Assembly (NCBI RefSeq): GCF_029891735.1
Contig: NZ_JANQDH010000038.1
Coordinates: 1-64,000, forward strand
Length of the DNA stretch: 64,000 bases
Source of the DNA: Chrysosporum bergii ANA360D
Lineage (GTDB): Bacteria > Cyanobacteriota > Cyanobacteriia > Cyanobacteriales > Nostocaceae
Direction: 5' to 3'
Within the stretch, counting starts at the first letter, position 1, and the number at the start of each line of letters is the position of its first letter. The notes under the pieces were generated by a model. The model was not told the DNA's origin. It was given only the letters and a program-made list of their open reading frames with translations, and did not search any database. Both the position numbers and the translations under genes were made by a program. Below, one piece after another: positions 29,065-46,165 of this stretch.

Positions 29065-31296
29065 TCAACCGAACTTACCAGCAGTGGAGGCGATTAAGAA
29101 CGCGGCATAGGTGAGGACGTAGCCGACGGTGAAGTGAGCTAGACCTACCAAGCGAGCTTGAACAATGGAGAGAGCAACGGGCTTATCTTTCCAGCGAACT
29201 AAGTTAGCTAGAGGTGTACGCTCGTGGGCCCAAACCAGGGTTTCAATTAACTCTTGCCAGTAACCTCTCCAAGAAATCAGGAACATGAAACCGGTTGCCC
29301 AAACTAGGTGTCCGAACAGGAACATCCAAGCCCAAACAGACAAGTTATTCACGCCGTAGGGGTTGTATCCGTTAATCAACTGAGCAGAGTTAGCCCAGAG
29401 GTAGTCACGGAACCAGCCCATGAGATAAGTAGAGTTTTCGTTGAACTGAGCAACGTTACCTTGCCAAATACCTAGATGTTTCCAGTGCCAGTAGAAGGTT
29501 ACCCAACCAATGGTGTTTAACATCCAGAACATAGCCAGGTAGAAGGAGTCCCAAGCGGAAATGTCGCAAGTACCGCCACGGCCTGGACCGTCGCAGGGGA
29601 AGGCATAACCGAAGTCCTTTTTATCGGGCATCAGTTTAGAACCACGAGCATCCAAAGCACCTTTAACTAGTACCAGGGTGGTGGTGTGAATTGCCAAAGC
29701 GAAGGCGTGGTGTACTAGGAAGTCGCCGGGGCCAATTGTTAAGAACAGGGAGTTAGTGCCAGAGTTGATGGCATCTAACCAGCCGCCTAACCAAACGTTG
29801 CCGTGGTTAGGATAAGCTGTGTAGGCGATGCTATCGGGGTTAGATAGTAAGGTATCTAAACCGTACAGAACCTTACCGTGAGCAGCTTGAATGAACTGAG
29901 CAAACACAGGCTCAATCAAGATTTGCTTTTCAGGAGTACCGAAAGCAACTACTACGTCGTTGTGTACATACAAACCGAGGGTGTGGAAGCCTAAGAATAG
30001 CGATACCCAGCTGAGGTGAGAGATAATCGCTTCTTTGTGCTGTAAAATCCGGTCTAGTACGTTCCCCTTGTTTTGTTCTGGGTCATAGTCACGTACCCAG
30101 AAGATGGCGGCGTGGGCGAAAGCACCAACCATCAAGAAACCAGCAATATATTGGTGGTGAGTGTACAGCGCTGCTTGAGTTGTGTAGTCCTTAGCAATGA
30201 ATGCGTAAGGAGGCAGAGAGTACATATGCTGCGCTACCAAGGAAGTAATGGTTCCTAGTGCTGCCAAAGCTAAGGACAGCTGGAAGTGCAGTGAGTTGTT
30301 AATGGTGTCGTATAAACCTTGGTGAGGCAGGTTAAATTGACCTTCACTCTTGCTACCAGGGATTAAACCAGATTTGGAATTGAGCATTTCTTTAATGCTG
30401 TGACCAATTCCAAAGTTAGTCCGGTACATATGACCAGCAATGATGAAGATAACTGCGATCGCCAAGTGGTGGTGAGCCATATCGGTCAGCCACAAGGATT
30501 CTGTCTGGGGATGGAAGCCGCCTAAGAATGTGAGGATCGCTGTACCGGAACCTTCAGATGTACCAAAAATATGGTTGGCAGTATCAGGGTTTTGAGCGTA
30601 AACGCCCCAGTTACCTGTAAAGAAAGGAGTCAAACCTGCTGGGTGGGGTAATGTGGTGAGGAAGTTATCCCAACCAACGTGCTGTCCGCGAGATTCGGGG
30701 ATAGCAACGTGAATCAAGTGACCAGCCCAAGCCAGAGAACTAACACCAAACAAACCTGATAAGTGGTGATTCAGGCGGGGTTCAGCACTCTTAAACCAAG
30801 AGAGGCTAGGACGGAACTTGGGTTGCAAGTGCAACCAACCAGCAAATAAGAATAATGCTGCCAACAACAACAGGAATACTGAACCTGTGTACAGTTCGTT
30901 GTTTGTCCGCATCCCGATGGTGTACCACCAGTGGTAAACACCAGAGTAAGCGATGTTTACCGGATTGCTTGCGCCACCTTGGGTAAATGCTTCAATAGCA
31001 GGTTCGCCAAAGTGGGGGTCCCAAATCGCATGGGCGATGGGACTGACATGAAGCGGATCTTTGATCCACTGTTCAAAGTTACCTTGCCAGGCTACGTGAA
31101 ACAGGAGGCTGGAAGCCCACAGGAAGATGATTGCCAAGTGACCGAAGTGAGTGGCGAAAATCTTTTGGTAAAGATTCTCTTCCGTCATGCCATCGTGGCT
31201 TTCAAAGTCGTTTCCAGTGGCGATCGCGTACCATATCCGACGAGTAGTCGGGTCCTGTGCGAGATCCTGGCTAAATTTGGGAAATTTGGTTGCCAT
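29065..31296 (-). CDS. psaB: Photosystem I P700 apoprotein A2
   Basis: One of the two reaction-centre subunits of photosystem I in the thylakoid membrane. It has 743 residues with eleven expected helices. The FX iron-sulfur ligand loop [18 protein letters not shown] lies in the last third. Many His residues for antenna chlorophyll are in conserved contexts ([26 protein letters not shown]). The start [20 protein letters not shown] is the standard one. It is 137 bp downstream of psaA and co-transcribed with it in all known cases. Confidence 0.99.
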
Positions 31297-31395
31297 AGGT
31301 TTTGATAATTCCTCTGACCCTTAGCCATTAGGTGTCAACTTGTAGAGTTCTGAGTTTTGAGTACCAAGTTTTCAGATTTGATGAATTACTCATCA

Positions 31396-31421
31396 CCCAG
31401 TACTCAGCACTCAGCACTCAG
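31396..31421. repeat. Short tandem heptads in the psaA-psaB spacer
   Basis: Heptads of the type (A/T)CTCAGC(A) repeat near 31400-31421 (TACTCAGCACTCAGCACTCAG). Short tandem heptamers are common in intergenic DNA of heterocystous cyanobacteria. Confidence 0.6.
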
Positions 31422-31433
31422 TCAAGTTAATTG

Positions 31434-33692
31434 CTACCCTACTGAAAGGATGTGTGCGTGGAAGAATGCCCAGGTGGTTACAATTCCTCCTAGGAGATAG
31501 TGAGCTACACCCACAGCCCGACCCTGAATAATGCTCAGAGCGCGGGGCTGAATTGCTGGTGCTACTTTCAGTTTATTATGTGCCCAAACAATGGACTCAA
31601 TTAGTTCTTGCCAGTAGCCGCGACCACTGAACAGGAACATTAAGCTGAATGCCCAGACGAAGTGAGCGCCTAAGAACAGTAACCCATAGGCAGATAAAGC
31701 ACTGCCGTAGGAGTTGATTACTTGTGCAGCTTGCGCCCACAAGAAGTCACGCAGCCAGCCGTTGATGGTGATGGCACTTTCGGCAAAGTTACCACCAGTA
31801 ATGTGAGACACATCACCTGCTGCATCTACTGTTCCCCAGACATCTGATTGCATTTTCCAGCTGAAGTGGAAGATGACAATAGATAGGGAGTTGTACATCC
31901 AAAATAATCCGAGGAACACGTGGTCCCAACCAGATACTTGGCAAGTACCGCCACGACCGGGACCATCACAAGGGAAGCGGAAGCCCAAGTTAGCCTTGTC
32001 TGGAATCAAACGAGAACTACGGGCGAACAATACACCCTTGAGCAGGATGAGGACAGTAACGTGAATGGTGAAGGCGTGGATATGGTGAACTAAAAAGTCC
32101 GCAGTCCCCAATGTAATGGGCATCATTGCCACTTTGCCGCCCACTGCCAAAATACCGCCGCCAAAGGCATAGCTAACCGGTTCTAAGGCATTGGGAGCAG
32201 TACCACCAGGCGCTAGAGTATGCAGGTTTTGCACCCACTGAGCAAATACTGGTTGTAACTGAATTGCCGTGTCGGAAAACATATCTTGGGGGCGACCCAA
32301 AGCACGCATTGTATCGTTGTGAATGTATAGTCCAAAGCTATGGAAGCCCAGGAAAATACACACCCAGTTCAGGTGAGAAATGATCGCATCCCGGTGACGA
32401 ATCACACGATCTAGCACGTTATTTTGGTTAACAACCGGATCGTAGTCCCGCACCATAAATATGGCTGCGTGAGCCGCACCGCCCACAATCAAGAAGCCAC
32501 CTATCCACATATGGTGGGTGAATATACACAATTGCGTTGCGTAATCCGTTGCTAAATACGGATACGGGGGCATTGCGTACATATGGTGAGCAATGATGAT
32601 TGTCAGTGAACCCAAGAAAGCAAGGTTAGTTGCCAACTGAGCGTGCCAAGATGTGGTCAGGTTTTCGTACAGACCTTTGTGACCTTCTCCTGTGAAAGGA
32701 CCTTTATGGTTTTCCAGGATCTCTTTGATGCTGTGACCAATACCCCAGTTGGTACGGTACATATGACCAGCAATGATGAACAGAACCGCGATCGCCAAAT
32801 GGTGATGGGCGATATCAGTCATCCACAAGCCCCCTGTTACCGGGTTTAAACCGCCTTTGAAGGTGAGGAAGTCAGCATACTGACCCCAATTCAAAGTGAA
32901 GAATGGTGTTAACCCGTTGGCAAAGCCGGGGTACAAATCTGTTAATAAGTCCTTGTTCAGCAGAAACTCATGGGGCAAAGGTATATCTTTTGCTGCGACA
33001 CCTGCATCCAAGAGTTTGTTGACTGGTGCTGACACGTGAATTAGGTGTCCTGTCCATCCCAGAGAACCACAACCCAGCAATACTGCCAAGTGGTGATTCA
33101 GCATTGACTCCACATTCTGGAACCATTCCAACTTGGGAGCGCGTTTGTGGTAATGGAACCAACCAGCAAATAAGAACAAGCCTGCTAGTACCAAGCCGCC
33201 AATAGCTGTTACATAGAGTTGGAATGAGCTAGTAATACCCCAGCCGCGCCACACTTGGAACAAGCCAGAGGTGATCTGAATACCGTGGAATCCTCCACCC
33301 ACATCACCATTTAAAATGTCTTGTCCCACAATAGGCCAAACGACTTGAGCGCTAGGACTCACATTTAAGGGGTCACTTAACCAAGCTTCGTAGTTCGAGA
33401 ACTTAGCGCCGTGAAATAACATCCCGCTCAACCAAATGGTTACTACGGCTAAATGGCCGAAGTGGGCTGCGAAGACTTTGCGGGAAATGTCTTCTAAATC
33501 GCTTGTATGTGTATCAAAGTCATGGGCGAGAGCGTGAAGGTTCCAAATCCATGTGGTGGTTTTGGGTCCCTTTGCTAAGGATCTGTCGAAGTGTCCTGGC
33601 TTTGCCCATTTTTCAAATGAGGTAGGAACCGGATCTTTATCGACTATGACCCTTGCTTTCTTTTCCTCTCGCTCCGGAGGACTAATCGTCAT
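31434..33692 (-). CDS. psaA: Photosystem I P700 apoprotein A1
   Basis: The A1 reaction-centre subunit, 752 residues. The N-terminus [20 protein letters not shown] is standard. The FX ligand loop [18 protein letters not shown] is present, as are the paired His blocks ([26 protein letters not shown]). AGGAGG precedes the ATG. psaA leads the psaAB operon with a long upstream region that may carry light-responsive sites. Confidence 0.99.
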
Positions 33693-34216
33693 TCGACCTC
33701 CTCTCTTGATAAGGAATGAGGAATCATAAGTACCACACAGTTAATCCCAGTCGCAAACTACAGAAACTCCGTAAGCCGTGATAATGAGTCCATGTGGAAT
33801 TTCGTTTCTGTTGAATTATAGAGTCATAACTGGTGAATTGTTAAACACATTTTAACAATAATTCAAATTAGCTGGAATAATTGTCTAATAAGCTTTTGAT
33901 ATTTCAAGGTTTGAGCAAAAAGTCAAGAGATTTTGCATTTAATTTACAAAGCATAACAATTTGTAATACTTATGATTTAACTTCAACCAAACTTAACCGA
34001 AAAAGAATTTATCTGTTTCCGTTGCTACAAACAAAAACACCCAATTATTAAGTTTTCTAAATTTTTCTAAAGTTTTCTTAAAAAAGAATAAAGAAATAAG
34101 AAATAATGTTAAAAGCTGTAATAAAAATTTAACCTTTTGGGATATGGTGTCAGATGCAGAATTAAGCCACAATTAAGCCACAATAGCTTATTCAGTTACT
34201 GACGACTCATAGAAGG
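33693..34216. other. psaA upstream region, gene-free
   Basis: This 524-bp, very AT-rich region lies between psaA and a divergent lipoprotein gene. It must hold the psaAB promoter and that of the lipoprotein. No further gene or strong hairpin was seen apart from an HLR1-like site (33951-33967). Confidence 0.6.
33951..33967 (-). promoter_or_regulatory. HLR1-like (RpaB-type) site upstream of psaA
   Basis: On the minus strand ATTACAAATTGTTATGC shows one good half (TTACA), then AA, two bases, G and a degenerate second half (TTATG for TTACA). HLR1 sites bound by RpaB control psaAB in other cyanobacteria. The match is partial and the distance of about 260 bp to psaA is long. Confidence 0.3.
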
Positions 34217-34225
34217 ATGAAATGT

Positions 34226-35620
34226 ATGAAATCCTGGCAGCAAGCGGTGTTAGATCGGATATTTTCTATGAAATTGACTATTTTTAAGTGGCTCATGACA
34301 TTTGTTCTGGTATTGAGTGTAACCAGTTGTAGTGAAAAAGCTGGTGGCAAAGAAATACCCGTGAGCAATACCAGTAACCCTTCGGAAATTTCTCAGATAT
34401 CAGCACAATTTTCCGAAGTTTCCCCACCGGCGGTAATTCAAGAACTACGCCCAACTTTAGAAAATTACCTTCCACAGGTGACAATAGTTACTCCCCAACC
34501 TGATAAAATTCTTCAAGATAATACAGTTACAGTCAACTTTGAGGTGAAAGACTTACCCATATTTAAAGATCCTCAATTAGAACTGGGACCCCATCTCCAC
34601 GTAATTCTGGATAATCAACCTTATATAGCGGTTTACAATATTAACCAGCCCCTAGTTTTACCAGACCTTTCTCCAGGTACACACACCCTGCGGGTTTTTG
34701 CTTCTCGTCCGTGGCACGAAAGCTTTAAAAATGAGGGTGCTTATGCCCAGACAACATTTCATATCTTCACCAAAACAGACGACAATAACCCAGATCCTAC
34801 TCTACCAGTCCTAACCTATAGCCGTCCTAAAGGCAGTTATGGAGCAGAACCAATTTTACTAGACTTTTACTTAACCAACGCTCCTCTGCACCTTGTGGCT
34901 GAAGACAACCCCAACGATACCATCAGCGATTGGCGTATTCGTTGCACTATTAATGATGAAAGCTTTATTTTAGATCGCTGGCAACCAATTTACCTCAAGG
35001 GCTTCAAACCTGGTAAAAACTGGGTAAAACTAGAATTTCTGGATAATCAAGGCAATCCCATCAAAAATGCTTTCAATACCACCGCCAGAGTGATCAATTA
35101 CCAGCCCCAGGGAGAAGACACACTGGCGAAAATTGTCAGAGGAGAATTAAAAGCGGATCAGTCCCTTGGCATTGTAGACCCTGATTACACAGCCAAAAAA
35201 GAAGTTAAAAAAGAAGTTATTGAACCAACACCCACACCCACCGTTGAAAAAACACCGGAACCACAGCCCCAGCTGATTCCTGAAACTGAAGTTACAGAAA
35301 CACCCCCAACGGAGTTACAAGAACCAGAAATAACTCCCACTCCTGAAGTTAAGGAACTGGAAGAACCGGAAACACCACAGCCCACTGAGTCACCAGCACC
35401 AGAAACACAACCACAAATAACTCCCACCCCTGAAGTTAAGGAACTGGAAGAACCGGAAACACCACAGCCCACTGAGTCACCAGCACAGGAAGAACCAGTA
35501 GAAAAATATTTTCCCCCTCAAGAACCCACCATACCAGTAGTTCCAGAAACTACCCCCATACCAGAAGAGGAAGAAAGGGCTGGCGAATTTAAAGTTACCG
35601 GATATAGACAGGGAATATAG
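34226..35620 (+). CDS. Lipoprotein with Pro/Glu/Thr-rich repeat tail
   Basis: The protein starts with a membrane segment and a lipobox (KWLMTFVLVLSVTSC), so it is anchored outside the plasma membrane. A folded region of about 90-340 contains the block PDKILQDNTVTVNFEVKDLP and ASRPWHESFKNEGAYAQ, which resembles an Ig-like fold. The remaining ~110 residues are Pro/Glu/Thr-rich and contain a 29-residue tandem duplication (ITPTPEVKELEEPETPQP in each unit). I chose ATG 34226, nine bases after AGAAGG. ATG 34217 (three codons earlier) and ATG 34268 are alternatives. Function is unknown; the tail may be a flexible spacer through peptidoglycan. Confidence 0.75.
   Translation: MKSWQQAVLDRIFSMKLTIFKWLMTFVLVLSVTSCSEKAGGKEIPVSNTSNPSEISQISAQFSEVSPPAVIQELRPTLENYLPQVTIVTPQPDKILQDNTVTVNFEVKDLPIFKDPQLELGPHLHVILDNQPYIAVYNINQPLVLPDLSPGTHTLRVFASRPWHESFKNEGAYAQTTFHIFTKTDDNNPDPTLPVLTYSRPKGSYGAEPILLDFYLTNAPLHLVAEDNPNDTISDWRIRCTINDESFILDRWQPIYLKGFKPGKNWVKLEFLDNQGNPIKNAFNTTARVINYQPQGEDTLAKIVRGELKADQSLGIVDPDYTAKKEVKKEVIEPTPTPTVEKTPEPQPQLIPETEVTETPPTELQEPEITPTPEVKELEEPETPQPTESPAPETQPQITPTPEVKELEEPETPQPTESPAQEEPVEKYFPPQEPTIPVVPETTPIPEEEERAGEFKVTGYRQGI
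35331..35495 (+). repeat. 87-bp tandem duplication within the lipoprotein gene
   Basis: TAACTCCCAC(T/C)CCTGAAGTT starts at 35331 and again at 35418. The two units are almost identical over about 75 bp. The period of 87 bp keeps the frame, so the copy number may vary between strains. Confidence 0.9.
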
Positions 35621-35686
35621 CCGGGGGAATATAGCCGGGGAATTTATTCCCGAAACCCAAACCAGCATCCTGCTTGTCCACGTAAC

Positions 35687-35703
35687 ACAAGCATCCTGCT
35701 TGT
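35687..35703. repeat. Short palindromic repeat
   Basis: ACAAGCATCCTGCTTGT, a 7-bp stem with a 3-base loop. A near copy (AGCATCCTGCTTGT) lies just before it at 35664-35677, and the same palindrome in reverse lies at 35905 and 36099. Confidence 0.7.
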
Positions 35704-35737
35704 CCGAGAATAAATTACCCAAGCCCAAGCAAAAGTC

Positions 35738-36170
35738 AGTCAAGCTAAAACCCAAACCATAAAACCCCCTCCCCACACATCCAAACCATAAAACACAAAC
35801 CATAAATCAGTCGGTTTTAACCGACTTAAGCTATTAGACAGGGAATTTATTCCCTGGCTCCCCCCCCACCGATCGCCAACCCATCCCACCCCACAATAAA
35901 TCAAACAAGCAGGATGCTTGTGTTACCAGTCGGTTTTAGTCAAGCTAAAACCCAAACCATAAAACCCCCTCCCCACACATCCAAACCATAAAACACAAAC
36001 CATAAACCAGTCGGTTTTAACCGACTTAAGCTATTAGACAGGGAATTTATTCCCTGGCTCCCCCCCACCGCCCGCTAACCGATCGCACAATAAATCAAAC
36101 AAGCAGGATGCTTGTGTTACTAGTGGGTTTTAACCGACTTAAGCTATTAGACAGGGAATTTAAAGCTATA
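35738..36170 (+). repeat. 200-bp direct repeats with hairpins upstream of the CyRepA1 gene
   Basis: AGTCAAGCTAAAACCCAAAC begins at 35738 and again at 35938, exactly 200 bp apart, and about 130 bp of the two units match closely. Each unit contains the palindromes GTCGGTT-TT-AACCGAC, CAGGGAAT-TT-ATTCCCTG and ACAAGCA-GGA-TGCTTGT. A truncated third unit (TTAACCGACTTAAGC to ACAGGGAATTTA) ends near 36170. The arrays fill much of the 804-bp gap 35621-36424. The remaining 250 bp before the replication-protein gene show no gene. An origin or copy-control role is inferred from position only. Confidence 0.85.
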
Positions 36171-36424
36171 TTTTCCCTGGCTGCTAATCAGGATTATTGA
36201 GCAAATTTACTGAAATATCAAAAATAATCCCCCTTAAATCTGACAATACAAGTTTATTAATACAGCAATATACTCTGATAGAGTTATGCACTTGCTCATT
36301 TACCGATGTATTTAGTCGTGCATAGCTAAAAAAACATCATTTAAACTTAGTAATAATCCCCATAGAAATCCAGGCCAGGCATGATAAGTTTTAAATCCGT
36401 CGTATTCCGTTCAAGGGTCTTACC

Positions 36425-39400
36425 ATGCCTCTGCAATCCTTACACATCAAACACCTTGAGGAATTAGTCAAGAAAAGCAGTATAGATGTAGACTTAGCTC
36501 AACTCAACTTTAAATCTCTCCAAGACGCATCAGCCTTAGAATATCTCTTAATTTCTCAGCATCTGCCCCGTACCAACACAGGTATGGTGAAAAATAGTTG
36601 GTTACAACGTTATAATCATGTCACCGCAGGTGGTTGGTGGTGTTCTGGTTTAGATCCCCTCAATAATTGGCAATCAATGGAATGGGGATGCTTTAAGCCC
36701 AACCAACCCCGAAGCAATCAAAATGGCAAACCCATCAAATATGAACATCCACCCAGCACCCCAACACGAGTATTTTGTTTGCGGGTGACATTAAAAATCT
36801 GGCAGCTAGTTTCTCAACGCTATAATCTAGCCATGCCCAATAGTATCAACATTGACCCCCATGGCGCAGCCGAAGGGTTTTGGCAGTGGGTAATGCAACA
36901 TAACCTACCAGTGATTATCTGCGAAGGAGCAAAAAAAGCAGCAGCCCTATTAACACAAGGATATACGGCGATCGCCATTCCAGGTATTACCAGTGGTTAC
37001 CGGGTCGTCAAAGATATATTTGGTAAAGTCACCAGTCGCCAACTAATTCCCGACTTAGGAGCATTCGCCATAACAAAGCGCTCTTTTTTGATTTGCTTTG
37101 ATTTTGAAACTCAACCCAGAAAAATTGCTGCTATCAACAATGCTATTTCTCAGTTAGGTTATTTATTCCAGTCCAAAAAATGCCCGGTCAAAGTCATAGA
37201 ACTTCCAGGAACAGAAAAAGGTGTTGATGAGTTCATTGTTGCTAAAGGCGCAGGTGCTTTCGATAAATTGTATCGCCAAAGTACTGATTTAGAAATTTAT
37301 TTATCCCAAAGCCAACCCCATACTCAGTTAACCATTCCCCCAGCACTCACAGTCAACTGTCCTTACCTAGAAAATGTATCTTATCCCACCACTGGACTAG
37401 TAGGGATAAAATCAGCCAAAGGCACAGGAAAAACCACAGCACTGCAAACTATTGTTAACAAAGCTAAACTTGCCGATAGACCAATATTATTAATTACACA
37501 TAGGATTCAGCTAGGTAGATTTTTGTGTGATAAAATTGGGATTCAATGGGGATTAAATTCTAGGGAAGATTTAACCATAACAGATAACAAATTAGCTAAT
37601 AAAGCTTTTGGTTTATGTGTTGATTCAATTTGGAAACTTAACCCTAAAGACTGGCAAGGGGCAATATTAATTTTGGATGAAGTAGAACAGAGTTTGTGGC
37701 ATTTACTCAACAGCAACACTTGTAAACATAAACGAGTCAAAATTTTAAAATTATTTCAACAATTAATTAATACAGTTTTGACTACTGGAGGATTAGTAAT
37801 TGCTCAAGATGCTGACTTATCTGATATATCTTTAGAATATTTGCAAGGATTATCAGACATTAAACTAACCCCCTGGGTGTTAATAAATCAATGGAAACCC
37901 CACAAAGGCTGGGATGTTACCTTTTATGACTCTCCCAACCCCACACCCTTAATTCATCAACTGGAATTAGATTTAATAGCCGGGCGTAAATGTTACGTTA
38001 CTACTGATAGTCGTTCAGGGCGTTATAGTTGTGAAACCATTGAAAGCTACCTCCAAGAACGTTTAGAAAAATTACGCCGGCAATTTCCCAAATCTTTAGT
38101 AATTAGTAGCCACACAACCAGCACACCCGGTCATCCAGCAGTTGATTTTGTCAGAGATATTAATCAAAGAATTGCGGAATATGATACAGTTTTTGTGACT
38201 CCTAGTGTGGGTACAGGAATTAGTATTGATGTGCAACACTTCGACCGAGTGTATGGCATTTTTCAGGGAGTAATTCCTGATTCAGAAGCACGACAAGCAT
38301 TAGCAAGAGTAAGAGATGATGTACCACGTATTATTTGGTGCGCCAAGCGAGGAATAGGTTTAATTGGTAGTGGTAGCACTAATTACCGACTACTATCTGA
38401 CTGGTATCAAGAAAATCAGAAAGAAAACCTAGCCTTGCTCAGTCCCTTACATAAAATAGATGTAGACCTACCATTAGTTTATGACCCTCTGCATTTGCGG
38501 ACATGGGCAAAACTATCTGCTAGGGTAAACGCTTCTATGAGTTTATATCGTCAATCCATGCAAGATGGTTTAATAGCAGATGGACATCAAATTTGGTTAC
38601 GCAGTAACGCGGTTCACAATAATATTATTAGAGATTTACGCCTAGCATTTTTAGCAACAGATTCCCAGGATGTAGAAAACCGCAAAAGATTAGTTTTAGA
38701 AATAGTTAAAGTGCAAAAAGATTGGGCAGAAAAGCGTCAGAAAGCCAAAGATATTAAACACAAAATTAGACAAATTAAGCAACAACATCAGTTCACGTCC
38801 GCCACTGCTGTGGCTACAGCGCGAGATATTAATTATATGGAGTATGAGGAATTATTAAATAAACATTCTCTCTCAGAAGCAGAACGTCACCAAATTCATA
38901 AATATAACCTCAAACAGAGGTATGGTATTCCAATTACTCCTTTATTGAAATTAAAAGATGATAAAGGTTACTATTCTCAATTACTAATTCACTATTATCT
39001 CACACATGAAAGCGAGTTTTTTCATGTTAAAGATCAGCAAGAATGGCGTGAACAATTATTGTGGGGGGATGGTAAAGTTTTTCTACCAGATTTAACAATT
39101 TATACCTGCAAAGTTGAAGCTATGAGAGCATTAGGAATGCTTCAATTGTTAGAACCAAAAAGACAATTTACAGAACATGATGTTGATTTACTCTTGCTAA
39201 AAAATGTAGTATTTCAGCATAGTAAACACATCAAAAGATTACTGGGTATTGATTTAATCAAAGGGAACGGGCATATTTCACCAATAAAAATACTGAGCCG
39301 ACTTTTAGCTCTCTTGGGGTTAAAGTTACGAAAGGTAAATGATTGCTATCAAATAGATACAGAAACTTTATTTGATGGTAGAGAGAACATATTTACAGTT

Positions 39401-39478
39401 TGGCAACAACGGGATGAATTAATGTTAGCCCGTATCAAAGGTTTGAGCAACAAAAAGGCTGATTATGTCCTCTGCTGA
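36425..39478 (+). CDS. CyRepA1-type plasmid replication protein (DUF3854 + helicase-like)
   Basis: A 1017-residue protein. The N-terminal third carries the DUF3854/TOPRIM-like region (VIICEGAKKAAALLTQGYTAI near 158-178, then FLICFDFETQPRK near 220-232). A superfamily-2-like ATPase follows with Walker A AKGTGKTT at 331-338 and Walker B LILDEVEQS near 416, then motif VTPSVGTGISID. This is the architecture of the cyanobacterial plasmid initiator family CyRepA1 (for example on pSYSA). Here it stands between psaA and dusB, with a repeat array upstream. The window therefore looks like a chromosomal copy or an integrated replicon. AAGGG precedes the ATG. Confidence 0.82.
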   Translation: MPLQSLHIKHLEELVKKSSIDVDLAQLNFKSLQDASALEYLLISQHLPRTNTGMVKNSWLQRYNHVTAGGWWCSGLDPLNNWQSMEWGCFKPNQPRSNQNGKPIKYEHPPSTPTRVFCLRVTLKIWQLVSQRYNLAMPNSINIDPHGAAEGFWQWVMQHNLPVIICEGAKKAAALLTQGYTAIAIPGITSGYRVVKDIFGKVTSRQLIPDLGAFAITKRSFLICFDFETQPRKIAAINNAISQLGYLFQSKKCPVKVIELPGTEKGVDEFIVAKGAGAFDKLYRQSTDLEIYLSQSQPHTQLTIPPALTVNCPYLENVSYPTTGLVGIKSAKGTGKTTALQTIVNKAKLADRPILLITHRIQLGRFLCDKIGIQWGLNSREDLTITDNKLANKAFGLCVDSIWKLNPKDWQGAILILDEVEQSLWHLLNSNTCKHKRVKILKLFQQLINTVLTTGGLVIAQDADLSDISLEYLQGLSDIKLTPWVLINQWKPHKGWDVTFYDSPNPTPLIHQLELDLIAGRKCYVTTDSRSGRYSCETIESYLQERLEKLRRQFPKSLVISSHTTSTPGHPAVDFVRDINQRIAEYDTVFVTPSVGTGISIDVQHFDRVYGIFQGVIPDSEARQALARVRDDVPRIIWCAKRGIGLIGSGSTNYRLLSDWYQENQKENLALLSPLHKIDVDLPLVYDPLHLRTWAKLSARVNASMSLYRQSMQDGLIADGHQIWLRSNAVHNNIIRDLRLAFLATDSQDVENRKRLVLEIVKVQKDWAEKRQKAKDIKHKIRQIKQQHQFTSATAVATARDINYMEYEELLNKHSLSEAERHQIHKYNLKQRYGIPITPLLKLKDDKGYYSQLLIHYYLTHESEFFHVKDQQEWREQLLWGDGKVFLPDLTIYTCKVEAMRALGMLQLLEPKRQFTEHDVDLLLLKNVVFQHSKHIKRLLGIDLIKGNGHISPIKILSRLLALLGLKLRKVNDCYQIDTETLFDGRENIFTVWQQRDELMLARIKGLSNKKADYVLC

Positions 39479-39485
39479 TAGATAA

Positions 39486-40538
39486 TTAAGCGACTTGAAA
39501 GTTACTAGCTTCCTCCATGGGCTGATAACTATGATTTAACTGTTCTACCCCTCGATCAATTAAATCCAAACCCTGCTGCACTGTTTCAATGACACTTAAC
39601 TGTCCCCGCAACTCAGCAGCACCCACAAAACCTTTAGCGTACCAAGTCATATGCTTACGGGCTTGACGGACACCGCGATCGCCTTTATATTCCCATAAAG
39701 CTTGTAAATGCTCTCTGGCACATTCTAAACGCTGAATTGGGCTTGGTGGCGACAATATTTCCCCTGTTTTCAAAAAGTGGTCAACCTCTCCCACCAAAAA
39801 AGGATAACCTAAAGTCCCACGAGAACACATCACCCCATCAGCGCCAGTTTGTTCCAAACATTTAACAGCAGCTTCCACGGAGAAAATATCACCATTGGCA
39901 ATTACCGGGATAGAAAGCACCTCCTTTACACGAGCTATCCATTCCCATCGAGCATTACCATTGTAACCTTGAGCGCGGGTGCGTCCATGCACCGTAATCA
40001 TTTGCGCCCCCGCATCTTCCATGCGCTTGGCAAAATCAAGAATAGTGATTTCCCGGTCATTCCAGCCAATACGGGTTTTAACTGTCACAGGAACATCAAC
40101 CGCCTTCACCACCTCCCGCACAATAGCTTCAGCCACTTCTGGTTGACGTAACAAAGATGAACCACCCCCATTTTTAGTAATTTTATTCACCGGACAACCC
40201 ATATTAATATCAACAGTGTCAGCACCTTCCCCCACAGCCTTAATAGCTGCTTGTGCCAAAAAATCTGGCCGACAGTCAAATAATTGAATACTAATTGGTC
40301 GTTCCCTGGGGTCTACCTCCATGATTTTGGGCAACTCTTTCACATAGTGTAATCCCGTAGCATTGACCATTTCCGTATACAACATAGAATCCGGCGCATA
40401 GCGACGCACCAGACGACGAAACACCATATCCGTCACCCCAGATAAAGGTGACTGCAAAACTCGACTTTTTACCTCAAAAGAGCCGATTTTTAGGGGTTGA
40501 GACAGAGTAGCTTTTAAAGTGGGAGATAGTGTCACCAT
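39486..40538 (-). CDS. dusB: tRNA-dihydrouridine synthase (DusB/NifR3 type)
   Basis: A flavin enzyme reducing uridine in tRNA D-loops. The 350-residue protein from ATG 40538 has the FMN-barrel motifs LQSPLSGVTDMVFRRL, MGCPVNKITKNGGGSSLLR (with the catalytic Cys) and TVHGRTRAQGYNG. The frame stays open eight codons upstream to a second ATG at 40562; I prefer MVTLSPTLKATLSQPL because the longer N-terminus looks unlike the family. It converges on the replication-protein gene, seven bases apart. Confidence 0.93.
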   Translation of the reverse strand: MVTLSPTLKATLSQPLKIGSFEVKSRVLQSPLSGVTDMVFRRLVRRYAPDSMLYTEMVNATGLHYVKELPKIMEVDPRERPISIQLFDCRPDFLAQAAIKAVGEGADTVDINMGCPVNKITKNGGGSSLLRQPEVAEAIVREVVKAVDVPVTVKTRIGWNDREITILDFAKRMEDAGAQMITVHGRTRAQGYNGNARWEWIARVKEVLSIPVIANGDIFSVEAAVKCLEQTGADGVMCSRGTLGYPFLVGEVDHFLKTGEILSPPSPIQRLECAREHLQALWEYKGDRGVRQARKHMTWYAKGFVGAAELRGQLSVIETVQQGLDLIDRGVEQLNHSYQPMEEASNFQVA

Positions 40539-40654
40539 AGAACTTAAAGTTGTGAAAATCAAAGATGATGATATTTAAGGTTATTTACGGGCCTTTAATC
40601 TTTACAAGTCCTGCTTGCTAATGACATACGTCACTAAGCGCGAAAACCGCTATA

Positions 40655-40912
40655 TTATTCACATTGCATCACCATCTTCATACCTGTTGGAGTCAAGTCC
40701 CAACTATCTCGTGGTGATCCAGGCTGTATGTGTCTTTTTAGCAAACCCTTAGCCACCAGATTCTTGAGAACAGTCATCATATCAGGTTCTCTTGGTACAT
40801 CCAGACGAGAAAGAGAATTGGCTAGTTCATACCAGCTAAAATTTCCCTGTCCTTTGGCAACTAATTTGAGAAGTACTAACTCCAGTTGAGTTAATTGAAT
40901 TGAGTTTTTCAT
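40655..40912 (-). CDS. Small winged-helix-like protein, possible immunity partner
   Basis: An 85-residue protein with a winged-helix-like pattern (LTQLELVLLKLVAKGQGNFSWYELANSL, then MMTVLKNLVAKGLLKR, then the wing DSWDLTPTG, all shorter than 20 residues when split). AGGAGG just before ATG 40912 supports this start over ones further upstream. It follows the toxin-like gene by 85 bp on the same strand. Immunity proteins of polymorphic toxins occupy this position and many have this GNFSWYEL-like N-terminus. That role is inferred. The alternative is a transcription regulator of the toxin gene. Confidence 0.6.
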   Translation of the reverse strand: MKNSIQLTQLELVLLKLVAKGQGNFSWYELANSLSRLDVPREPDMMTVLKNLVAKGLLKRHIQPGSPRDSWDLTPTGMKMVMQCE

Positions 40913-40997
40913 AAATATTCCTCCTATATGCAATTGTAAAAGGATTTGATTAAGTTTAAAAATTGAATATGCTAGAAGAGAATTATTTGACAAAGTT

Positions 40998-41393
40998 TTA
41001 CTCAAAAAATAAAACACCTGGGCCTTCCTTTAGCCCATAATCCTCTAGTGTTGCTGTGTGAGCATTATTCCAGAGTTCATAAGCTGCATCTGGATCATCT
41101 GGTTGTCCAATTGGGTATTTAAGTTTTTTGTATCTCAGATATTCCCGTAACTCATGAGTATAAAAACGGATATCTACTGGTTCTGCTTCAAGTTCATCTG
41201 CTGCAATTTTTCTTAATCTCTCTACCATTTTCATTTCTTCATTACCAACAGGATTAAATCTCCGAATATGCGCTTCAACGATATCAGTACCTTTGTGTGT
41301 AATCCTGACCTTTGTATAAAAGAGATTCAGGATTTTGCCACCCGCCCTTGATGGATCGAAGGGTCTGCCACTACTAGCACCTTTTTCCAGCAT
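40998..41393 (-). CDS. Orphan polymorphic-toxin-like C-terminal domain
   Basis: A 131-residue protein without signal peptide or membrane segment. It begins with the linker-like ASSGRPFDPSRAGGKILNL and continues with VRITHKGTDIVEAHIRRFNP, FYTHELREYLRYKKL near 77-91 and YELWNNAHTATLEDYGL near 105-121. This block resembles the C-terminal toxin domain of CdiA/Rhs-type polymorphic toxins, in which H, E, N and H residues are likely catalytic. Here it stands alone rather than at the end of a giant delivery protein. No ribosome site is obvious. The family call is from memory of such tails and is not certain. Confidence 0.55.
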   Translation of the reverse strand: MLEKGASSGRPFDPSRAGGKILNLFYTKVRITHKGTDIVEAHIRRFNPVGNEEMKMVERLRKIAADELEAEPVDIRFYTHELREYLRYKKLKYPIGQPDDPDAAYELWNNAHTATLEDYGLKEGPGVLFFE

Positions 41394-41772
41394 TTAAAAT
41401 ATTAAATTTTTTATAAATAAAAAATATACTTAAATATTCTATCACACTACTTTAAGTTCTTTATAATTCGCTCAAAGACGGCAAACACCACTTTGAGATT
41501 ACGGTTGACCCTAATTACTGAAAGTATTAATTCTCATACATTAGACAGAGTGAAAGTAAATTTCTCAATCAACGAACTAAATACATCCTTTAAAATTAAC
41601 CGTCCCGTCCAAGGTTCGGTAAACCCTCCCTAATCAACTGACTATAACTGAACTCATCAGTATATATATCAGGATAACTTGAGGTGTTAACCCCAGGGAA
41701 GCCGAATTAAAGGTTGTTAGTCCCTTATATTCCCATTCATTCATTTGTAGTTATACGGAGCCAGCACTTAAA
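41394..41772. other. Gene-free region upstream of dnaK
   Basis: This 379-bp gap separates divergent genes and must hold the dnaK promoter. No gene, no CIRCE element (TTAGCACTC-N9-GAGTGCTAA) and no strong hairpin were seen. Confidence 0.5.
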
Positions 41773-43674
41773 ATGGCAAAAGTAGTTGGAATTGACTTAG
41801 GTACAACGAACTCTTGCGTAGCAGTAATGGAAGGTGGTAAGCCCACAGTTATTGCTAACGCAGAAGGGTTTAGGACAACACCATCAGTAGTGGCATTTGC
41901 CAAAAATGGTGATAACTTAGTTGGTCAAATCGCCAAACGCCAGGCGGTGATGAACCCTGAAAATACCTTTTATTCAGTCAAACGCTTTATTGGCAGACGC
42001 TACGACGAGGTTGGTAAGGAAACCACAGAAGTTTCCTACAAAGTCCTGAGCAGCAACGGTAATGTCAAGCTAGATTGTCCCATAGGCGGTAAACCCTTTG
42101 CACCAGAAGAAATTTCTGCCAAAGTTCTGCGTAAACTCGTTGAAGATGCCAGCAAATATCTTGGTGAAACCGTCACCCAAGCTGTCATCACCGTTCCTGC
42201 ATACTTTAACGATTCCCAGAGACAAGCCACAAAAGATGCTGGCAAGATAGCAGGTATTGAAGTTCTGCGGATCATCAACGAACCGACAGCAGCTTCTCTA
42301 GCCTATGGTTTTGATAAGAAAAGCAACGAAACCATTTTAGTATTTGACCTTGGTGGTGGTACTTTTGATGTATCCATCCTAGAAGTAGGTGATGGAGTAT
42401 TTGAAGTACTAGCCACTTCCGGTGACACTCACCTAGGTGGTGACGACTTTGATAAAAAAATAGTTGACTTCTTAGCGGAACAATTCAAAAAAGAAGAAGG
42501 TATAGACCTACGTCAAGATAAACAAGCCTTACAACGTTTAACTGAAGCCGCAGAAAAAGCCAAAATTGAACTTTCTAGCGTTTCCCAAGCAGAAATAAAC
42601 TTACCATTTATCACTGCTACCCAAGACGGTCCCAAGCACCTGGATACAACCCTCACCCGTGCTAAGTTTGAGGAACTCTGCTCAGACTTAATCGACCGTT
42701 GCCGCATTCCGGTTGAAAACGCCATTCGCGATGCCAAGTTAGGCAAAGGTGATATTAATGAAGTTGTACTAGTTGGTGGTTCTACCCGTATTCCTGCTGT
42801 ACAACAAGTGGTGAAGCAGATATTAGGTAAAGAACCTAACCAAACCGTTAACCCTGATGAAGTGGTAGCGGTTGGTGCAGCTATTCAAGCGGGTGTGCTA
42901 GCAGGTGATGTCACAGGCATCTTATTATTAGATGTGTCTCCACTGTCTTTAGGTGTAGAAACCCTGGGCGGTGTAATGACTAAAATTATCCCCCGCAATA
43001 CCACCATCCCCACCAAAAAATCCGAAGTTTTCTCCACCGCAGTGGATGGACAAACCAATGTGGAAATTCATGTTCTTCAGGGTGAACGGGAATTCTCCAA
43101 TGATAATAAGAGCTTAGGAACCTTTAGACTTGATGGTATTCCCCCAGCACCACGGGGCGTACCACAAATTGAAGTTACCTTTGATATTGATGCTAACGGT
43201 ATCCTCAACGTTACCGCTAAAGACAAAGGTACTGGTAAAGAACAATCTATCAGCATTACTGGCGCTTCTACCTTAGATAAATCCGACGTTGACCGCATGG
43301 TGAAAGAGGCAGAACAAAACGCTGCTGCTGATAAAGAACGCCGTGAAAAAATCGAACGCAAAAACCAAGCCGACTCCTTAGCCTACCAAGCCGAGAAGCA
43401 GTTGCAGGAGTTAGGTGATAAAGTTCCTGAAGCTGACAAAACCAAAATAGAAGGTTTGGTCAAAGACCTACGGGAAGCCGTGGCCAAAGAAGACGACGAG
43501 CAAATCAAGAAGCTGACACCAGAATTACAACAAGCATTATTCGCCGTTGGTAGCAATATCTATCAACAAGCTGGTGGTGATGCTGGTGCTAGTGCTGGGC
43601 CTCAAGATGCTGGTTCAACCCCACCCGGCGGCGGTGATGATGTGATTGACGCTGATTTTACTGAAAGCAAGTAG
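41773..43674 (+). CDS. dnaK: DnaK chaperone (DnaK2 type)
   Basis: An Hsp70 of 633 residues, the length of the essential cyanobacterial DnaK2. The N-terminus is [15 protein letters not shown], the phosphate loop [12 protein letters not shown] is near 194, the interdomain linker [14 protein letters not shown] is near 385, and the C-terminal tail is Gly/Pro-rich ending in [17 protein letters not shown] lies 13 bp before the start. It works with ClpB in disaggregation. No dnaJ or grpE is adjacent. Confidence 0.97.
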
Positions 43675-43705
43675 TTGTAAAATTTACCGCCATTTAATAG
43701 TGTTA

Positions 43706-43736
43706 CCCATCCAAGCCGATGCCTGGGTGGGATTTT
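43706..43736 (+). terminator. Terminator after dnaK
   Basis: CCCATCCA (43706-43713) and TGGGTGGG (43724-43731) form a stem with one G-U pair, followed by ATTTTAT. Confidence 0.75.
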
Positions 43737-43740
43737 ATAA

Positions 43741-43828
43741 GAAAATGCGCGGAGAAACCTTCTTTAGGCAAGGGATGAAAGCCAGTCGAAGCGTAAACGC
43801 CTCGGTTATTTAAGCCGGGGTAGTTCAT
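43741..43828 (+). mobile_element. Right-end / omega-RNA-like module of a second IS200/IS605-type family
   Basis: The stretch GAGAAACCTT...GGCAAGGGATGAAAGCC...AGCGTAAACGCC, then a hairpin CCTCGGTT / AAGCCGGGG followed by TAGTTCA, matches the layout of cyanobacterial tnpB 3' ends. I recognise this layout from other Nostocales; it is not related to copies a-c. No tnpB is present. Its last bases (TTCA) overlap the stop codon of patB on the other strand. Confidence 0.55.
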
Positions 43829-45423
43829 CTAATATTTAACACCTTCCGTAACAGTGCTTGGTCTTCCACTTTAACTTTCAAACGCCCATTTTCCACATCG
43901 CGAATCCAGCTTTGACTTTTACCCGTCAACTTTGCCAACTCCCTCTGGGATAGATGTAAATTTTTTCGTGCTTGTAAAATTTCCTCACCGGGTAAGTTGC
44001 TACTGGTAGGGGTCTTTCTTCTCCTTTTTACAGTTCGCCGTGGCTTTTTTGATGATTCCGAGGTGTGCTGTTGCCATTCCGGCGGTAGTTCAAAAGACAA
44101 AATGCGAGCATTCATCAACAGATTCCACTTACCACGGGGGGCTGAATCTGTGATACTGGTATTAGAACCACCATCATTAATCCAAAATTCTAAAGCCTCG
44201 TCTGGATCTTCCGGAATACTCATTAACTTAGCCCACAATGGTTGAATTTCTAAGGGGTAAGTGATGGGGTCAAAAATAGGTTTAATTCCATGATGGTTGA
44301 GAACTTCCAAGTCACTTTCAAAAGTCCGTACTAAGCGTTTACGTTCTTCTCTCTGTCTACAGGCAATGGCAATTTTTTCTTCACCGTAAGCAATACGTAG
44401 TAATGTGGGAATGGTAATGCGCTGTTCTTTGCCCATTTTGGTTTTAAACAGTAACCATAGCATCAGTCTTACAGCACCTTCATGTTGTTGCCAAATGCTC
44501 ATGACTGTGGTTAATAGCGTTTTGGGTAAACTGCCATATTGATAAAATGCAGTTCTCTCTTTACAGGCTTGTTTGTTTAAGAAGTATTGCGTCCAGATTC
44601 CCGGTTTTACTTTAAAAGTCAGTCCCACCAAATATTTACACCCCAAATCATCTTCTTGAAAGTGATGCTGAATATTGATTAAGTGCCATAAACGGCTTTT
44701 TTTGACTGAAAAGCCTAAAATGCGACCTTGTTGCGGCCAGTCAATGGAAACCATCAACGAACAAGCTTGACTGACGATATTTTTAATTAAGGCTAGTTTG
44801 GCATTTTTGCTTAAGTCCTTGCGCTTTTCTAAACCTAAATATTTCTCAATTTGGCGTTCATCAATGGCGAATTCTTCTTGCCAAGGTTGATCTAATAAGG
44901 TGGCATAAGCGGCAAATATCAGATGAATAACAGCGGCTCTAATATCAAGTGCAGCAATTGCTGGTAAATCAGTTATGCTATTCATGCTCTGATTCACTGG
45001 AAATGGATCTTGGAGATGAAAAGCGATCGCACCCCGTCCTTGTTTGACTTTTCGTTGATAACATAAATTACCTTGTGGATCATTTTCCCAATTAAGGGAT
45101 GTACGTTGTGCCAATACATTGCAGGCTTCCCAAATCACAATAGCCGAAGCAAAGGGATTATTCTTACCATTGGCAAATAAATCTGGGCTTGGCGCTTCTC
45201 TCGGTTCAACCTTGCATCTACCTTTTTTTGCTTGCCAAGGTATGGGAGAATTATTAGGACAAGCTACTACACATTGCGGTTCAGGATAATAACCCTCACA
45301 GTTATTACAAAGACCAGGATCAATCCAGTATTCATTATTCTCTATTTTGATTGCACCCGTAGGACATTGGGGGCGGCAGTTGTCACATCCAACGCAATTG
45401 TTGTTAGGAATTGTATAAGGCAT
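43825..45423 (-). CDS. patB: PatB/CnfR, ferredoxin-HTH regulator of nitrogen fixation in heterocysts
   Basis: The 532-residue protein begins with two [4Fe-4S] motifs (CVGCDNCRPQCPTGA, then CNNCEGYYPEPQCVVACP) and ends with a helix-turn-helix (LSQRELAKLTGKSQSWIRDV, about 490-510). In Anabaena sp. PCC 7120, PatB/CnfR senses the low-oxygen state and activates nif genes in mature heterocysts. It lies beside the same cox2/ferredoxin genes as here. It is divergent from fdxB across a 742-bp gap. The stop codon coincides with the end of a mobile-element module, so the last few residues may not be ancestral. Confidence 0.92.
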   Translation of the reverse strand: MPYTIPNNNCVGCDNCRPQCPTGAIKIENNEYWIDPGLCNNCEGYYPEPQCVVACPNNSPIPWQAKKGRCKVEPREAPSPDLFANGKNNPFASAIVIWEACNVLAQRTSLNWENDPQGNLCYQRKVKQGRGAIAFHLQDPFPVNQSMNSITDLPAIAALDIRAAVIHLIFAAYATLLDQPWQEEFAIDERQIEKYLGLEKRKDLSKNAKLALIKNIVSQACSLMVSIDWPQQGRILGFSVKKSRLWHLINIQHHFQEDDLGCKYLVGLTFKVKPGIWTQYFLNKQACKERTAFYQYGSLPKTLLTTVMSIWQQHEGAVRLMLWLLFKTKMGKEQRITIPTLLRIAYGEEKIAIACRQREERKRLVRTFESDLEVLNHHGIKPIFDPITYPLEIQPLWAKLMSIPEDPDEALEFWINDGGSNTSITDSAPRGKWNLLMNARILSFELPPEWQQHTSESSKKPRRTVKRRRKTPTSSNLPGEEILQARKNLHLSQRELAKLTGKSQSWIRDVENGRLKVKVEDQALLRKVLNIR

Positions 45424-46165
45424 AAGGCTATAGAACTTGTTCCCAATTTAATCATTGAGATGTTTGGTTTAAATCTTCCCTGGATGTTTCCTCTGTGTTT
45501 ATCACTTGCCACCCAACTATATTTTCAGCTAAAATAATTTCTATTTGCTGTCAAAATTCCCCAGATCCATATTTAAATAACACATCCAAATAGAAGGTAT
45601 TTTCATCTCTTAATGGGAGGCTTAGATGACTTCTTTATTAACTATAAATTTCATAAGTAATTAGATAAGTTTGTTCATAATGAGCCTGAGTTAAAAACTA
45701 TTTTTAAATTGTTTGGTTAGAACATAGATGTATTTGACTAAATGTAATCTTCTTTATTAAAAATTTTAATATTTAACCCAAGCAACTCTTCTGTTACTAA
45801 AGATACCATTTACTCTAGTGAAAAAATATTAAATGTAATAAATAAACATAAACAGTGTATTAATCAACACTATTAGTGATATATTTGATATTAATATAAA
45901 AGAAAAAATTTCATTATTATTAGAGCTATTTTACCTAAAAAAACTCGGTATAAAGGAGTATTTAGAGGTTAAATAATTTAATTGAAATTAAAGTTATTGA
46001 TAATAAATTTCAACTAATGGTTAAATATCTAAATTAATCACCGATATTTTCACAAGTCAGGAAAAATTAAATTGATAAAAAAATAATTGCTTAACCGTAA
46101 AGCAAAAGAATAATTTTAGGTTAGGATGATGATTAAGGTACAAAGAAATTCGTAGGCGTTTATTC
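45424..46165. other. Divergent intergenic region between patB and fdxB
   Basis: A 742-bp, very AT-rich gap carrying the promoters of both genes. An imperfect palindrome GTGT-ATTAATCA-ACAC lies at 45855-45870. No NtcA box (GTA-N8-TAC at proper spacing) and no gene were found. A start-site map would be needed to go further. Confidence 0.5.

Follow-up and report, generated by a model that had tools for sequence, protein, structure and literature searches.

A conserved chromosomal CyRepA-family gene of Nostocales and the 222-nt element directly upstream of it

The plasmid pSYSA of Synechocystis 6803 carries, at its ssr7036/asRNA1 locus, the replication protein (Rep) CyRepA1 (Slr7037). Both slr7037 and its upstream region are reported to be needed for the replication of pSYSA-derived vectors, with a regulatory region lying directly upstream of the gene and control being exerted by two overlapping RNAs (PMC9978351). 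A relative, CyRepA2 (ORF B of pCC5.2), is described as a DUF3854 protein conferring autonomous replication, and so by description belongs to the same family (PMC10079941). CyRepA homologues were also counted on the chromosomes of 80 of 145 cyanobacteria, with a function that this source presents as still to be validated (PMC10899382). Here, we describe a CyRepA-family gene in a 64,000-nt stretch of Chrysosporum bergii ANA360D (contig NZ_JANQDH010000038.1, positions 1 to 64,000; hereafter, the window), together with a conserved 222-nt element before its start codon. As judged by sequence comparison, the locus is probably a chromosomal member of the family that has been domesticated and vertically inherited in Nostocales, with a dedicated promoter/regulatory region and a probable role in chromosomal DNA metabolism, rather than an integrated plasmid. 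The homologues of PMC10899382, as described there, represent the same phenomenon, which is resolved here to one Nostocales clade with its own element and its own Toprim letters.

The window gene is an intact open reading frame (ORF) of 1017 aa. A first-pass annotation of this DNA had called it CyRepA1-type, and this was confirmed by hidden Markov model (HMM) searches: the protein matches Pfam DUF3854 (expectation value, E, 1.2e-47; 161.5 bits against a cut-off of 23), with a DUF3854/Toprim-like domain at residues 152-276, and the NCBIfam CyRepA1 model NF042913 (404.8 bits against a curated cut-off of 200) at residues 323-970. It also contains the helicase motifs that we take to be Walker A, DExx and the arginine motif, and both the curated cut-off and these motifs place it in the CyRepA family. 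The DUF3854 plus helicase architecture, the Walker A, DE and arginine motifs and the NF042913 match are shared with pSYSA CyRepA1, which is nevertheless only 33.8% identical to the window protein, plasmid-borne and different in its Toprim letters (DxD, as FDND, against DxE in Nostocales). The Rep of pAQ1 likewise matches NF042913 and belongs to the same family, but is 33% identical and falls outside the Nostocales clade. Among the 42 Nostocales rows of our alignment, the Walker A and DE motifs are present in all, and motif VI (LARVR) in 40, with conservative changes in the other two. The ratio of nonsynonymous to synonymous substitution (dN/dS) between the window gene and eight orthologues was 0.10-0.15, synonymous sites being partly saturated in the distant ones. 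The AlphaFold2 model of the protein was poor (mean predicted local distance difference test score 52.3), and no sequence relative was found in the PDB at E 0.1. At the position where the other orthologues have their ATG start, L033 (a genus mate of the window genome) and L061 have ATA, with the next ATG two codons on.

In a tree of 88 rows, built by a quick method and supported by the Shimodaira-Hasegawa-like approximate likelihood-ratio test (SH-aLRT) only, the 42 Nostocales rows (39 distinct sequences) form one clade with an SH-aLRT of 100 and a long stem, within which the named rows are broadly grouped by genus and family and none of the 16 plasmid copies is found. L115 was excluded from the tree and the motif counts, as the longest-ORF rule had chosen the wrong frame. 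Beside this clade stand, with a weaker claim, the long-branched L161 and L162, both from family members, and L170. The larger group that is sister to it was contributed by other families, some of its copies being on 5.7-6.3 Mb contigs (L144, L146 and L147). The classical Toprim (DnaG-type) active site is defined by a conserved glutamate and a DxD pair. The glutamate (CEG) is present in 42 of 42 Nostocales rows, but the pair reads DxE (DFE or DYE) in every one of them; it is DxD in all 16 plasmid rows and DxE in 12 of the 13 sister-type rows. These comparisons bear on whether the chromosomal Rep is kept for the sake of plasmids, replicating those of CyRepA type, or interfering with them, in trans. 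Family membership and the several CyRepA matches in many genomes of the family would fit such a service, yet the gene is also kept in single-contig genomes and in single-match genomes such as that of the window, and it is far diverged from the plasmid copies and carries another Toprim motif, so that we regard this explanation as improbable.

The window genome has a single CyRepA-family copy. Some match was found in 142 of the 145 genomes of the family and a match of at least 68% identity, which we took as the chromosomal clade (orthologue grade), in 133, the window genome included. The gene lies on the one contig in 10 of 11 single-contig genomes, although the match in one of them (G135) covers only residues 247-1013 and lies in a 797-aa frame. 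Class-wide, 147 of 291 genomes gave some match, with at most 48% identity outside the family among the matches listed. In a plasmid collection, 451 records matched, all below 60% and the best at 39.6% among the matches listed; Klebsiella (174) and Escherichia (26), whose matches fall outside the 60 rows listed, stand high in this tally. The first-pass annotation had left open whether the locus is an integrated plasmid with an origin or a chromosomal copy, and had proposed that a lack of replication activity, together with the same locus in a conserved non-plasmid context throughout Nostocales chromosomes, would refute a replicon-like unit. The distribution and the non-plasmid contexts largely agree with the second part of this and with a chromosomal copy, although the dusB-dnaK neighbourhood itself is that of close relatives. 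That a plasmid with a functional origin integrated here recently appears extremely improbable: a plasmid-type Rep name and direct repeats upstream would suggest one, but the gene is widely distributed as one clade, it has chromosomal neighbours common to relatives, no plasmid copy reaches 60%, the repeats are unrelated to it, and no further plasmid gene was recognised among the ORFs of 30000-46000. By distribution, context, plasmid search and tree alike, the gene is neither on a plasmid nor recently derived from one.

The first-pass annotation had not named the conserved feature upstream of the gene, a 222-nt stretch that separates the repeats from the start codon; alignment of upstream regions showed these 222 nt to be conserved across Nostocales. 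The 118 regions collected reduced to 104 distinct ones, 49 of 78 diverse ones were aligned, and 34 were used to build a sequence-only model. In all 80 named orthologous loci, this model found the element a single time, immediately before the gene; 15 of these loci had also supplied training rows and so match by construction, a few more being from the same genomes as other training rows. The element is near full length in 75 of these loci and half length in five. The latter (L110, L115, L117, L118 and L125, from Scytonema, Tolypothrix and Brasilonema) keep only the proximal half, which suggests that the element has two separable parts. In a search of 20 whole genomes, with 115 first-look candidates scored per genome, strong scores were obtained in the eight genomes having the clade gene and a partial one in G134, and the element was found neither in G013 and G068, which both lack the gene, nor in eight genomes without the clade; the weaker matches (E 0.0005-0.008) came from G134, G111 and G016. 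The 46 plasmid and other CyRepA loci, for which mostly ~500-900 nt of flank was searched, gave one weak match (L190, E 0.024), and the model found no match in the pSYSA locus. Compared with the regions upstream of neighbouring genes in the same loci, the element was more conserved in 28 of 29 clusters, in comparisons that overlap in loci; clusters exceeding 20 loci were randomly reduced to 20, and the longest ORF start was used as the gene start. The one exception seems to lie inside an operon, as read from the gene order.

Within the element, every one of the 104 distinct regions upstream of orthologues has the extended -10-like motif TGnTAnnnT, at a distance of 27-58 nt from the aligned start; in 200 shuffles, the motif was present in 6.5 regions on average and in at most 17. 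A promoter scan that needs two hexamers did not report it, its sole match being on the other strand (2.0 expected). RNAalifold found no consensus pair (0 pairs in 49 sequences, given strand only), and in a scan of the 104 upstream sequences no helix exceeded 6 pairs and most changes were one-sided; this speaks against an RNA regulator, including a start-codon stem, whereas the pSYSA locus is controlled by two overlapping RNAs. A hidden small protein was rejected, there being no shared open frame in six frames and no 3-base periodicity, as was the palindrome TATGCAC/GTGCATA, of which the pair ATGCAC..GTGCAT occurs in 1 of 104 regions. Given the extended -10 motif and the lack of RNA fold and coding, the element is best interpreted as a promoter preceded by an extended control region, and a Rep-binding or origin role is possible as well. 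Its distal core motif is found without mismatch once in this genome, at this locus; one mismatch allowed two matches, against one in a reversed-pattern control, and a regulon-wide operator was accordingly rejected. The portions of the literature on CyRepA1 and cyanobacterial DUF3854 available to us contain no description of the element or of the DxE letters. The element offers a compact target for finding the regulator of the gene.

The dependence of chromosome replication on DnaA is reported to have been lost several times in cyanobacteria, including in an ancestor of Nostoc 7120; Nostoc azollae has a disrupted dnaA, and some filamentous cyanobacteria replicate their chromosome without DnaA by a route that the source gives as unknown (PMC7198777). 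In the family, 11 of 145 genomes had no dnaA above cut-off, two of them (G016 and G081) being less than 90% complete. The CyRepA-family gene is kept in 10 of these 11, including, with an open frame (L174), G014, which we take to be Nostoc azollae 0708. The genomes without dnaA above cut-off include five of 99% completeness (G053, G086, G106, G120 and G136); four belong to one genus (g53), of which a fifth member, G131, has dnaA, and these absences are apparent repeated losses.

We considered whether the locus could be a cryptic or conditional second chromosomal origin, in which the element would be the cognate CyRepA binding/melting site and the whole a plasmid-style module backing up DnaA/oriC. 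In its favour, the Rep gene and the adjacent AT-rich element occur together, and pSYSA-derived vectors are reported to need slr7037 and its upstream region for replication; the reported loss of DnaA-oriC dependence in an ancestor of Nostoc 7120, the retention of the gene in dnaA-less genomes and the uniqueness of the exact core motif point the same way, and the cumulative guanine-cytosine (GC) skew of the window turns at ~32 kb, ~4 kb from the element, although the psaAB gene strand may cause this turn. Such an origin is nonetheless unlikely, since no skew switch was found at the gene over 62 loci (right flank above left in 27, p = 0.13) and sampling of 20 stretches of 20 kb each near the G014 locus showed only small sign changes, one of them ~40-80 kb away. 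Moreover, the distance between the gene and dnaA in single-contig genomes is not fixed (~63 kb in G080 to ~2.9 Mb in G026), one genome lacks both genes, five loci have only the proximal half of the element, and no iteron array was noticed in the element, on which no dedicated repeat search was made. It is also unlikely that the gene and the element make up a second initiation module of plasmid origin, passed down vertically in Nostocales chromosomes and active when DnaA/oriC is absent or failing; if true, this would explain how Nostoc-type chromosomes replicate without DnaA. As GC skew, dnaA co-occurrence and losses do not favour an origin, we consider it more likely that the gene has an auxiliary role on the chromosome, in initiation, restart or repair, than that it serves a dedicated second origin.

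The single copy, the wide distribution, the clade apart from the tested plasmid copies, the purifying selection, the motif retention and the linked element together argue for a domesticated chromosomal gene. The protein is an intact primase-like (Toprim, DUF3854) and helicase-like ATPase, presumably expressed from a dedicated, unusually long and rigid 222-nt promoter/regulatory region, and it may now, with less certainty, serve chromosomal DNA metabolism rather than replicate a plasmid. Its most likely action would be the unwinding and priming of DNA where initiation has stalled or starts at alternative sites, these chromosomes being able to replicate independently of DnaA. The gene is a concrete, testable candidate for DnaA-independent chromosome replication. 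Because the NCBI model names it a plasmid replication protein, annotators of Nostocales genomes can easily mistake it for the remnant of a plasmid.

Several observations weigh against this reading. The gene can be lost: 12 of the 145 genomes have no clade-grade match (G007, G009, G013, G037, G044, G047, G068, G084, G105, G111, G119 and G134), as judged from the best E-value for G009, G037, G044, G047, G084, G105 and G119, although G134 is only 54% complete and has a partial match to the upstream element. In G013, a single 3.8 Mb contig of 99% completeness, neither dnaA above cut-off nor chromosomal CyRepA nor any DUF3854 match was found, a warning that the CyRepA-family gene cannot be the sole candidate for the DnaA-independent route. 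The gene is also present in 123 of the 134 dnaA-bearing genomes, so that there is no link between the gene and dnaA loss (Fisher p = 1.0). In L061, the CyRepA-family protein (84%) is less conserved than PsaA and PsaB (99%), DnaK (96%), DusB (92%) and PatB (88%), though more so than the product of the 467-aa ORF upstream (ORF467; 70%). The sister group in the tree contains three plasmid copies, and the tree flags long-branch joins, among them that of L161/L162 with the Nostocales clade. Finally, the DxE pair is not exclusive to the Nostocales clade, as it occurs in two of 17 other rows against DxD in 15, and several of the DxD-bearing copies sit on chromosome-sized contigs; hence, the Toprim letters mark the clade and not chromosomal location as such. 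Neither G013 nor G068 yielded a definable empty site: in G013 a search run without a positive control did not find the flank protein tried, and in G068 this protein had only paralogue-level matches (best 33% identity over most of the length).

Table 1. Features at the CyRepA-family locus, in window coordinates.
Feature	Position	Strand	Basis
Chromosomal CyRepA-family gene	36425..39478	+	ORF, HMM matches, motifs, tree
AT-rich conserved noncoding element, 222 nt; putative promoter/regulatory region, possible Rep-binding region	36203..36424	+	alignments, sequence model
Extended -10-like motif TGnTAnnnT inside the element; putative promoter	36382..36390	+	motif count; invariant alignment columns
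Most conserved distal block of the element, consensus AAATATCACAATACAAAnTTATTACTT	36236..36262	+	alignment, genome motif search
Repeat copy 1 of 129 nt, containing two palindromes; interspersed genome repeat	35738..35866	+	repeat search, folding
Repeat copy 2, at a spacing of 200 nt from copy 1; 99% identity between the two	35938..36066	+	repeat search, folding
Partial third repeat copy, 44 nt, 95%	36119..36162	+	repeat search
467-aa ORF (ORF467), no Pfam match; also in L033, L040, L042, L061, L067	34217..35620	+	ORF, Pfam, locus comparison
Gene of a tRNA-dihydrouridine synthase, presumably dusB-like; convergent with the CyRepA-family gene and also found near it in close relatives	39486..40562	-	ORF, locus comparison

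Upstream of the element lie the direct repeats that the first-pass annotation had described as exact, spaced by 200 bp and accompanied by hairpins, and had connected with the gene as parts of a replicon or as copy control. The spacing stands, but the two copies are not quite identical, and there is a partial third one (Table 1). Folding supported two hairpins each in copies 1 and 2 (z -3.3 and -3.7) and was less clear for the ACAAGCAGG.. hairpin stretch (z -1.3) and for the partial copy (z -1.6). With up to 3 mismatches allowed, the window contains a 29-mer of the repeat 3 times, compared to 0.00 expected (100 shuffles), and terminator-like matches (4, against 1.1 expected) lie inside the repeats. 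A search of the window genome with 35600-36200, in which 40 of 124 candidates were scored, gave 101 matches spread over many contigs, one of them being the locus itself. At the 109 related loci (L032-L140, 29 of them with only ~1.5 kb of flank), the repeat stretch was matched once, weakly (L114, 41 nt, 83%), and not at the other 108. This genome-wide occurrence and the near-absence at related loci indicate that the repeats are interspersed and not part of the unit; on present comparisons they are lineage-specific elements, unrelated to the gene, that came to lie in the spacer ahead of the conserved stretch. That they are iterons of the gene or control its copy number through antisense RNA, for which the upstream position and the palindromes of low folding energy might be cited, is very unlikely on the same grounds and for further reasons: the repeats lie outside the conserved element and are not the origin-specific, Rep-associated repeats of an iteron-type origin, and the sole Rfam match in 33700-41800, taken as chance, is far under the gathering score (23.6 against 80 bits, E 0.18). 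As short palindromic units scattered through the genome, they resemble the interspersed miniature repeats (small dispersed repeats) of cyanobacteria.

The CyRepA-family gene lies between ORF467, which is next to psaAB, and the convergent dusB-like gene, with dnaK beyond, so that psaAB and dnaK do occur in the same DNA, as the first-pass annotation had noted. The order psaB-psaA-ORF467-CyRepA-dusB-dnaK was also found in L061 and L067 (Anabaenopsis elenkinii chromosome). Each of the 12 loci closest to that of the window (L032-L043) has dusB in its 1.5-kb flank, and of 80 named loci seven have it in the available flanks. Many Nostoc loci have another common neighbourhood, and the Fischerella loci have the same right-hand genes as the Nostoc ones; we read these differing neighbourhoods as probable rearrangement around a chromosomal gene, not repeated plasmid capture.

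A link between the CyRepA-family gene and nitrogen fixation was rejected on a comparison of nifH read from E-values: the clade-lacking genomes, except the incomplete G134, have a strong nifH match, and in the window genome, which does have the gene, no nifH reaches the cut-off. The window nevertheless encodes, at 43825-45423 (-), a protein with 4Fe-4S and helix-turn-helix domains that we take to be PatB/CnfR-like, which is apparently a nitrogen-fixation-type regulator without its nitrogenase (nifH below the TIGR01287 cut-off, best E 5.2e-75). In ORF467, the Pro/Glu/Thr-rich tail contains an 87-nt tandem duplication (93%; 35322-35495).

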